DNA from: Propionibacteriaceae bacterium
GTDB taxonomy: Bacteria > Actinomycetota > Actinomycetes > Propionibacteriales > Propionibacteriaceae
Direction of reading: 5' to 3'
Length of the DNA stretch: 39,463 nt
NCBI GenBank assembly: GCA_031262485.1
Contig: JAISHO010000039.1
Span: 1 to 39,463 of the forward strand
Shown: positions 1-3,617 of the stretch, one piece after another
Layout of the letters: every line of letters starts with the position of its first letter
How positions within the stretch are numbered: the first letter of the stretch is position 1
Program-made: the position numbers and the translations under genes
Notes under the pieces: model-generated
Database searches by the model: none
Told to the model about the DNA's origin: nothing
What the model saw: only the letters and a program-made list of their open reading frames with translations

Positions 1-78
1 AAAAGCAGCCCAGATGTCACAGACGGCGACTATGCTCCCCTTCAGGAACCACGCCCCGAAACCTCACCGGCCACCTAA
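1..78 (+). CDS. C-terminal fragment of an unidentified ORF, possibly a transposase
   Basis: Frame 1 is open from the window edge to a TAA at 76-78 and ends in an acidic/proline-rich tail (...PLQEPRPETSPAT). The start lies outside the window. The DUF3800 gene on the opposite strand loses family similarity at about position 125, so this fragment plus 79-125 could be the end of a mobile element that cut that gene. I cannot assign it to an IS family, and an open frame this short may be chance. Confidence 0.25.
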   Translation, partial: KSSPDVTDGDYAPLQEPRPETSPAT

Positions 79-297
79 CCGATGAACCTCAAAATCCACG
101 ACGAACGGGGCAAGCCCGGCGCCGGTGTGAATGGCATGGTCGTGCGGAAGGTCCACGTTTCTCAGCGATTCGGCGAGTTTGGCGACACTTTCGGAGATGC
201 TGTGTTGTTGCTCGTGGAAAACCAGTGAGACGATGTAGTAGTCGGACTGGTCTCCGAAGTCTCCCGACTCGTCAACGAAGACGCTGAGGTCCGCCAC
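64..297 (-). pseudogene. DUF3800 domain protein, N-terminal fragment
   Basis: The 77-residue product begins MADLSVFVDESGDFG, the acidic DESGD motif that opens the DUF3800 family (thought to have an RNase H-like fold). It continues as the family does through DHAIHTG (about residues 53-59). After that a family member normally continues with a PLIRxE-like segment and totals roughly 200-250 residues. Here it switches to unrelated sequence (AGLAPFVVDFEVHRLGGR) and stops. I read this as a gene truncated at about position 125, probably by an element extending to the left edge. The ATG lies 15 nt beyond a terminator-bearing structured RNA on the same strand. The family's function is not established; DUF3800 genes are known to be associated with conserved non-coding RNA motifs. 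Confidence 0.65.
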
Positions 298-305
298 ATT
301 GCCCC

Positions 306-400
306 CTGGGGAAAAAAGAATGGCGGGGGACTTCCCCCGCCATCAGGTGGACCCGGGTCTTTCAACCAGTCCAAGTGGTCCCACTGTAGCACAGGGGCCA
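306..400 (-). ncRNA. Putative structured RNA upstream of DUF3800 (DUF3800-motif-like)
   Basis: Read on the minus strand. A first stem pairs TGGAC (373-369) with GTCCA (352-348). Inside it GGTT (367-364) pairs with GACC (359-356) across a GAAA tetraloop (363-360), a GNRA loop. Just 5', AGTG-GGAC-CACT can form a small hairpin. The element ends with a perfect 11-bp stem ATGGCGGGGGA (343-333)/TCCCCCGCCAT (330-320) followed by T6 (317-312). There is no convincing ORF. Known: Weinberg and co-workers described several 'DUF3800' RNA motifs linked to genes of this family. Assignment of this element to one of them is inference. The exact 5' end is unknown. Confidence 0.5.
312..343 (-). terminator. Intrinsic terminator immediately upstream of DUF3800
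   Basis: Perfect 11-bp GC-rich stem with a 2-nt (AG) spacer, or a 4-nt loop if the last pair opens, followed by TCTTTTTT on the minus strand. It lies between the AlbA_2 gene (stop at 474) and the DUF3800 start at 297. It could end the AlbA_2 transcript, end a discrete small RNA, or act as an attenuator for DUF3800. Confidence 0.8.
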
Positions 401-2249: not shown

Positions 2250-2387
2250 TGACGGATCGTAGAGTTCAGAACTGGCGGATTGTAGAGTTCAAAGCTGGCG
2301 ACTTGTAGAGTTCAGAAGTGGCGGATTGTAGAGTTCAAAGCTGGCGACTTGTAGACTTCGGCTATGGCGGATTATCGAACACGGGTT
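2250..2387 (+). repeat. 23-bp tandem repeat array running into a start codon
   Basis: Five consecutive 23-bp units (2250-2272, 2273-2295, 2296-2318, 2319-2341, 2342-2364) share the pattern TGGCGRMTTGTAGAGTTCARA plus two variable bases. Units 2 and 4 are identical and units 3 and 5 are close. A degenerate sixth unit (2365-2387) overlaps the first codons of the AAA/DUF4143 gene: its TGGCGGATTAT is the TG of the ATG plus codons 2-4. 23 bp is about two helical turns, so the array could be iteron-like operator sites. A unit length that is not a multiple of 3 means copy changes alter spacing but not the reading frame of the gene. Confidence 0.85.
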
Positions 2388-3617
2388 GTGGACGCTGAGC
2401 TAGCACGTCGCATGCGGGTCATGGGCGCCATGCTGATCGACGGCCCGAAGGCGGTGGGGAAGACTCAGACGGCGACTCAGATCGCGAAAACGGTGCTGCG
2501 ACTCGATGTCGATCCGGTGGCGCGAGCCGCCTTGGAGACCATGCCGGAGCAGCTGTTCAACTATCCGACACCTATCCTTTTCGATGAGTGGCAAGAGACA
2601 GCAGACTTGTGGAATCTGGTGCGGCGTGCCGTCGATGATCACCATGACAAGGGTTTATATCTGCTCACTGGATCGGCGACGCCGCGAGATGACGCCCGAA
2701 TCCATTCAGGGTCTGGTCGTATCGGACGTCTGCGGATGAGGCCGATGTCGTTGTTCGAATCAGGCCATTCGGATGGCTCGGTCAGCCTGTCGGCTTTACT
2801 CGACGGAGGGCCGGTGACTGGCAGCACCAACACGCTCACAGTGCCGCAACTGCTTGAGCGGATCGTCGTCGGTGGTTGGCCGGAGATCACCGACTGGGAC
2901 GTGACAGACGCGCGCGAATGGCTCACGGACTACCTGCGCAACCTCGTTGAGGTCGACGTTCCACGGCTTGGCCCGCGCCGGAACCCGGAGAACATCACAC
3001 GCTTGTTGGCGTCACTGGCACGGGCAGTTGGAACACCGGTGAAGCGATCCGAGTTGGAGGTCGAGGTGGGCGGGTCGGCCGGGCCGATCGCATCGGAGAC
3101 CCTCAACCATTACCTGGACGCGCTCGACCGGCTGATGGTGCTCGAACCTCTTCCGGCGTGGCGTCCCCATATGCGATCGAGGACGAGGCTGCGAACAACG
3201 CCAGTGCATCATTTCGTCGACCCGTCGATCGGAACGGCGGCGCTCGGCGTCGGCCCCGATGACCTCGTGGCGGATCTCAACGCGGCGGGCCTTCACTTCG
3301 AGTCAATGGTTCTCCGTGACTTGCGCGTTTACGCTCAACCACTCGGCGCGAAACTGTCATCTTGGCGAGACACCCGGGTGAATAAGGAGGTAGACGCCGT
3401 CCTCGAACTGCCCAATGGCACATGGGCAGCGTTTGAGTTCAAACTCGGCGAGGGTGCGACAAACGCTGCGGCGGACTCCCTGAATTACTTCGCAAGTAAG
3501 GTTGATACAACCAAGCATGGAGAACCCGCCGCGCTCGTTGTTGTCAATGGCGGTCGTTTCGCGATGCGCCGTGACGATGGTGTCACCGTCGTTCCGATCT
3601 CAAACCTCGGTCCCTGA
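2364..3617 (+). CDS. AAA ATPase with C-terminal DUF4143 domain
   Basis: 417 residues. Walker A GPKAVGKT lies near residues 27-34 and Walker B PILFDEWQ near 70-77, followed by a sensor-like LLTGSATPRDD. The C-terminal half has the DUF4143 features: ITRLLASLARAVGTPVKRSEL, a winged-helix-like segment, and the terminal FEFKLGEG, which resembles the PD-(D/E)xK-like fold often attached to this family. Such AAA_14/DUF4143 proteins are common in bacterial accessory regions and have been linked speculatively to toxin-antitoxin or defence roles; no activity is proven. The ATG at 2364 is set by the conserved MADYRxRVVDAEL start. It lacks a clear Shine-Dalgarno and is preceded directly by the 23-bp repeats, which may control it. 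Confidence 0.85.
   Translation: MADYRTRVVDAELARRMRVMGAMLIDGPKAVGKTQTATQIAKTVLRLDVDPVARAALETMPEQLFNYPTPILFDEWQETADLWNLVRRAVDDHHDKGLYLLTGSATPRDDARIHSGSGRIGRLRMRPMSLFESGHSDGSVSLSALLDGGPVTGSTNTLTVPQLLERIVVGGWPEITDWDVTDAREWLTDYLRNLVEVDVPRLGPRRNPENITRLLASLARAVGTPVKRSELEVEVGGSAGPIASETLNHYLDALDRLMVLEPLPAWRPHMRSRTRLRTTPVHHFVDPSIGTAALGVGPDDLVADLNAAGLHFESMVLRDLRVYAQPLGAKLSSWRDTRVNKEVDAVLELPNGTWAAFEFKLGEGATNAAADSLNYFASKVDTTKHGEPAALVVVNGGRFAMRRDDGVTVVPISNLGP

Follow-up and report, generated by a model that had tools for sequence, protein, structure and literature searches.

We analysed contig JAISHO010000039.1 of a Propionibacteriaceae bacterium (assembly GCA_031262485.1), an entire contig of 39463 bases which is called the window in the following; the genome is a 2.84-Mb draft of 49 contigs. 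Near the left end of the window, on the minus strand, a short structured RNA is located directly before the remnant of a DUF3800 gene. At 326-373 (-) this RNA matches the Rfam family RF02975, DUF3800-XI RNA, with 59.5 bits (E 7.4e-11) against a gathering cut-off of 37.8 bits. It is thus a member of this family, placed before its own DUF3800 gene. Sequence, structure and the place upstream of DUF3800 are those of the family, but the partner gene is broken here. The family, for which Rfam gives the type 'Gene; sRNA', is already known, and the window copy is an added member. This is in line with a preliminary description of this DNA, which had suspected an orphan RNA motif linked to DUF3800.

The RNA element and the interrupted DUF3800 gene

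The core of the RNA (348-373, -) consists of helix P1 (UGGAC/GUCCA, 369-373 paired with 348-352), which encloses helix P2 (GGUU/GACC, 364-367 paired with 356-359) with its GAAA loop. The 11-bp hairpin P3 follows at 319-344 (-), likely as a terminator stem and conserved part of the RNA at once, and directly past it a T6 tract at 312-317 (-) marks the predicted 3' end. Both the fold and the covariation described below support the core and P3. The two-stem element, the hairpin and the T6 tract, at 373-348, 344-319 and 317-312, had been proposed from the window alone and are present; the GAAA loop proposed with them exists in the window but is not constant in relatives. Folding of the 66-nt RNA yields -33.8 kcal/mol (z -4.18), a stability that none of 200 shuffled sequences reaches. 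The computed fold of the window RNA shows no mutually exclusive attenuator and antiterminator structures, and no tandem array is found at the RNA site.

An extended -10-like box, TGCTACAGT, lies at 383-391 (-), and its fixed position in relatives makes it the predicted RNA promoter. A TANNNT box whose TA lies 15 or 14 nt before P1 occurs in 22 of the 23 actinobacterial loci compared, and 19 of the 23 have a TG ahead of such a box; L035, whose box also sits at -15, was excluded from this count. If the box is taken as a -10 element, the RNA would start about 3-4 nt before P1 and be 60-65 nt long, which leaves no space for a guide. The predicted small RNA of about 65 nt then extends over 312-377 (-), its start derived from the box and its end from the terminator. 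It is conserved nearly from the first base to the terminator, and no variable segment occurs within it. The end of P3 and the start codon are separated by a median of 25 nt, and by no more than 40 nt in 64 of the 80 loci, so that there is little space for a second promoter.

The gene remnant, about 60 codons at 118-297 (-), begins 21 nt past P3. Its in-frame start is a GTG at 297-295, and L004 and other relatives likewise start with GTG there; the ATG that had been assumed as the start, 15 nt past the terminator, overlaps it at 299-297 and is out of frame. The sequence CAGGGGG at 302-308 (-) is a possible ribosome-binding site, judged by its position ahead of the GTG. The remnant is 75% identical to residues 1-63 of the intact relative L004, where homology ends, and it matches our protein profile A1, built from eight intact DUF3800 proteins, at E 4.2e-24. 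Pfam gives no match for the short remnant piece; intact relatives match PF12686. The frame continues to a stop at 64, which is already inside a transposon: bases 1-117 (+) are the 3' end of a Mutator-family element, with 13 matches in the genome, eight of them (window copy included) at 94-100% over 117-118 bases. Locus L221 holds the complete element; it encodes a transposase of 441 aa from the Mutator family (PF00872, E 1.5e-34), and window bases 1-78 correspond to the last codons of this transposase. Because bases 1-117 recur and L221 is a full element, we conclude that the gene is interrupted by the transposon, and the assembly breaks there. The gene is hence incomplete, as had been noted, but it is not merely shortened. 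A genome search at E 1e-5 gave no further piece of it, and judging from its sequence the window copy is able to yield the RNA but not an entire protein.

The genome carries a second DUF3800-XI RNA on contig C29 (L002, 1501-1554), which scores 36.7 bits with RF02975, just below the cut-off, and 47.3 bits with our model R1 described below. It has no DUF3800 gene. A transposase-like sequence, which we take to resemble an IS3-type transposase, starts just past its terminator; the 118-aa piece after the RNA has no match in Pfam. Beside the other DUF3800 gene of the genome (L003, contig C34), Rfam gives no RNA match up to E 0.5 and R1 none up to E 1.

Conservation of the RNA in relatives

A search of named genome contigs with profile A1 gave 396 relatives, of which the best 80 were retained. 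As A1 was made from RNA-adjacent proteins, all statements on linkage are restricted to this examined subfamily. The titles of the records among the best 80 include Propionibacteriaceae, Microbacteriaceae, Nocardioides, Coriobacteriia, Treponema and many Lachnospiraceae; many are draft metagenome bins. Among plasmid and phage records, one record each was obtained. The loci are not fully independent, since upstream DNA is identical or nearly so in the pairs L104/L107, L108/L110 and L077/L083. The last pair comes from bins titled Acidaminococcaceae and Anaerolineaceae, which points to transfer or to a binning error.

For the RNA we constructed a covariance model, R1, with 52 positions and 17 pairs from 26 sequences; the building set included 21 of the 80 genome loci and 4 of 14 loci on viral contigs. 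R1 finds the RNA upstream of all 80 genome loci (E at most 7.2e-5) and of 13 of the 14 viral loci (E below 0.001), and the fourteenth, L112, has a diverged version visible only by eye. Apart from the model, the RNA is also evident directly in the upstream DNA, as a single element per locus in the 94 loci and without tandem repeats. Four weak rows of 27-28 bits (L016, L019, L020, L021) were taken as spurious, and the presence of the RNA was not judged for G592 (37 residues matched) and G075 (residues 133-205 only).

Within the 26 sequences, 9 of the 17 pairs change on both sides. Among 67 distinct rows this rises to 14 of 17, and 67 covariation cells stand against 10.4 in shuffles, none of 500 shuffles reaching this value; the alignment (A5) was fitted to the covariance model and is biased towards it. 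Covariation of the stems had been named beforehand as a check on the element, and it is found. Throughout the examined subfamily, the RNA is thus shown to be a structure (P1/P2 and P3) that is conserved, covaries and stands immediately ahead of the gene. A chance hairpin or an ordinary terminator could be considered, as about 0.3 terminator-like sites are expected by chance in the 321-base stretch around the element, but it is contradicted alike by the Rfam match, the covariation and the linkage to the gene, and we reject it as having practically no probability.

The letters of P1 and of the internal loop are near-invariant. Rare members re-pair P1, such as L124 (UGGGU/ACCCA), L174 (UGGUC/GACCA) and, by eye, L185. 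The subgroup of L174 and L206-L210, with P1 as UGGUC/GACCA, reaches only 33-36 bits with R1 and may merit a model of its own. Runs of at least five T past P3 are present in 3 of 24 actinobacterial loci versus 42 of 56 others, and because conservation of P3 extends to loci that lack such a run, it looks like a part of the RNA itself. Further downstream, a second hairpin resembling a terminator is seen in several loci. Outside Actinomycetota, the core is preceded by a variable hairpin, P0. Among 59 distinct 26-nt stretches, 43 have a fold of -3 kcal/mol or below there, with 13.1 expected from shuffles, and the next stretch further upstream does so in 3 of 59. P0 is absent in Actinomycetota, since 10 of 19 stretches fold there versus 8.9 expected. 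This comparison comprises 78 distinct stretches from 83 of the 94 loci.

These data bear on the suggestion that the protein is an RNA-guided nuclease, its guide carried in the RNA. An RNase H fold, as modelled below for our protein, would suit such a function, and the pertinent sections of two papers (PMC10910872, PMC12669027) place other DUF3800 proteins in CRISPR loci. However, no variable segment exists from the -10-like box to the terminator, where a guide would find no space, and the variable P0 is paired with itself. We therefore disfavour this suggestion as very improbable. Of the two-component system that the preliminary description had envisaged, it is the RNA-guided version that finds no support in a predicted transcript of this kind, while RNA and gene do behave as a two-part unit.

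The full P3, P0 outside Actinomycetota and the fixed promoter-like box are not within the 48-position Rfam model as matched, nor is the pattern of gene loss described next; some of this may already be in print. In the literature on DUF3800, PF12686 and RF02975, the original motif description not included, we found no function assigned to DUF3800-linked RNAs.

Gene loss, solitary RNAs and neighbouring genes

In the family of the window genome (197 genomes), RF02975 matches occur in 14, one of which (G146) was taken as spurious, and protein profile matches in 13. The front part of the protein is included at 12 of these 13 places (G127 out of frame), and the RNA is present at all 12, at ten by RF02975 and at two more by R1. 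Seen from the RNA, a full-length open gene is present at 7 of 16 places and lacking at the other 9. The intact copies that had been expected in relatives thus exist.

A larger picture emerges from the family of a Lachnospiraceae genome (299 genomes), where R1 marks 51 RNA places in 41 genomes. At 22 of them the gene is intact, at 25 it is broken or missing, and 4 are cut by a contig end. Conversely, R1 detects the RNA (E below 0.001) at 28 of 30 fetched protein loci. Of the remaining two, L172 runs into a contig end but still shows P3, and L185 is diverged. Counting these two on visual judgement, the RNA accompanies 27 of 27 full-length open genes. Of the single stops listed for 14 of the first 29 protein rows, only that of L184 falls within the aligned stretch, and the others were taken as the natural end. 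Four loci (L140, L143, L151, L158) carry the full RNA structure and no DUF3800 gene in the fetched flank. In G338 (L018, L022), a normal RNA-gene pair is accompanied by a weak gene-less RNA (32.6 bits with RF02975, 33.9 with R1) 2.5 kb away on the opposite strand.

With 25 of 51 RNAs lacking an intact gene and 27 of 27 genes having their RNA, this imbalance agrees with an RNA whose loss must not precede that of the gene. Solitary RNAs would also be in agreement with an independent, trans-acting small RNA to which DUF3800 is a passenger or accessory, all the more as 11 of the 41 RNA-bearing genomes have no protein match at E 1e-10. Yet the distribution is patchy (14 of 197 and 41 of 299 genomes), and the protein-led search always shows the gene behind the RNA, so that we regard independence as improbable.

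Another idea is that of a cis-acting leader, bound by the protein or another factor to tune read-through or translation of its own mRNA. Any read-through mRNA must carry the RNA as its 5' leader, and the distance from P3 to the start codon is short (median 25 nt). Against this stand the missing alternative antiterminator fold in the window RNA, the survival of the structured RNA where the gene is gone, and a sequence conservation across phyla that, in our judgement, exceeds that of most autoregulatory leaders. We consider a leader function rather unlikely.

Broken pairs were counted in 6 of 25 RNAs without an intact gene versus 1 of 22 with one (two-sided p 0.10); with other loci added, the numbers are 8 of 35 versus 2 of 31 (p 0.089). 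Edge pairs (columns 1-30 and 47-56) and the four RNA places at contig ends were left out, L146 with its 'broken' gene was grouped as gene-less, and the home groups also include L017, L018 and L022 from the phylum search. The difference, which is not significant, gives a hint that the RNA may decay after gene loss, as though it needed the protein. This would suit an RNA that is a positive cofactor, the nuclease working only as a guide-less ribonucleoprotein which, for example, recognises foreign or damaged nucleic acid. The strict linkage and the near-invariant P1 and internal loop are compatible with this, but a cofactor role alone leaves the frequent solitary RNAs unexplained. We consider it a serious but on the whole unlikely alternative.

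In 20 of 46 loci, the next downstream frame shares the strand of the pair. For a neighbour scan, 90 of 179 listed reading frames from these 46 loci were used (52 loci qualified, 6 near-duplicates were dropped); the 90 were picked by hand, approximately one per side, sometimes with a longer frame instead of the nearest. Among the 90, no Pfam family is seen more than 3 times and no PADLOC family more than twice, so the pair looks free-standing. A third gene partner or a defence island is not supported by these 90 neighbours. In the window, the RNA is preceded on its own strand by a gene with Schlafen AlbA_2 and HATPase_c_4 domains (474-1991, -). At 2245-2373, a 23-base unit is repeated in tandem (5.6 copies) directly ahead of an AAA_14/DUF4143 gene (2364-3617).

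The DUF3800 protein and a possible mode of action

The DUF3800 protein of this subfamily has about 226 aa and a single domain. Neither the PADLOC and NCBIfam scans of the protein itself nor a comparison with solved chains gave a credible sequence match. A confident structure model has RNase HII and RNase H2 as top structural matches, at about 10% identity; no ToxN-type chain is among the matches listed, which is not evidence of absence. D9, E10, D141 and D179 are invariant in 54 sequences, i.e., Asp-Glu on the first strand and two further Asp, at positions compared with what we take to be the RNase HII site numbers. This likeness in fold and acidic residues suggests a metal-dependent, RNase-HII-like nuclease, probably with an RNase-HII-type active site, but here linked to a small RNA.

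All that goes beyond a structured RNA before the gene, we infer. Our tentative explanation, to which we give somewhat less than even chances, is that the DUF3800-XI RNA restrains its own RNase-HII-like nuclease, with RNA and mRNA both arising from one promoter through a leaky terminator. A single promoter would drive the short RNA from about 3-4 nt before P1. Most transcripts would end at P3 as the 60-65-nt RNA, and a minority would read past it into DUF3800 mRNA, as the median of only 25 nt between P3 and the start codon suggests. The nuclease would bind the element of P1, internal loop and P2, and the abundant RNA would keep it inactive, similar to the RNA antitoxins of type III toxin-antitoxin systems. 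If the supply of RNA failed, e.g., upon phage infection, the nuclease would be set free. Restraint seems likelier than activation because the layout would yield RNA in excess and because the RNA persists after gene loss. Such a toxin-RNA reading is plausible.

Two results weigh against this explanation. A sigma-70 consensus scan found no standard -35/-10 pair, which concerns its promoter part. Furthermore, the gene is an approximately 11-fold larger target than the RNA, and the chance of the observed asymmetry in losses is then 0.12 for 25 loci and 0.054 when ten more are added (n = 35).

Known type III families include ToxIN, CptIN and TenpIN, and ToxN is not known to have an RNase-H-like fold. 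In its section on these systems, PMC5086642 describes a short structured RNA, a terminator and a nuclease gene under one promoter, with tandem repeats as a key feature. The order of RNA, terminator and gene is shared by the window and its relatives, as far as promoter and transcripts are predicted, but here the RNA is a single element without tandem repeats or a predicted pseudoknot, and the protein is RNase-H-like in its model. The pair may work like a type III toxin-antitoxin system, yet we do not file it as one, because the tandem repeats are absent. The DUF3800 proteins of CRISPR type V-A2 and VI-F loci, for which the sections concerned in PMC10910872 and PMC12669027 report an RNase H fold, share the domain name. 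They have TPR parts or are located within CRISPR loci, whereas the protein studied here is a single domain without a recurrent neighbour among the 90 scanned.

The question is thereby narrowed to a near-obligate RNA-gene pair whose transcript ends are predicted within a few bases, with no guide, with a likely RNase-HII-type active site, and with recurrent loss of the gene while the RNA remains. From a biological point of view, we could be dealing with a two-part toxin-antitoxin or phage-defence system, a possibility that we hold to be less likely than not: one repeat-free structured RNA would check an RNase-HII-like nuclease, as a class of RNA antitoxin whose nuclease has a fold unlike that of ToxN, in several phyla and on viral contigs, and the RNA would often outlive the gene. 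Should this be true, the same principle might apply to the other RNA families linked to DUF3800.
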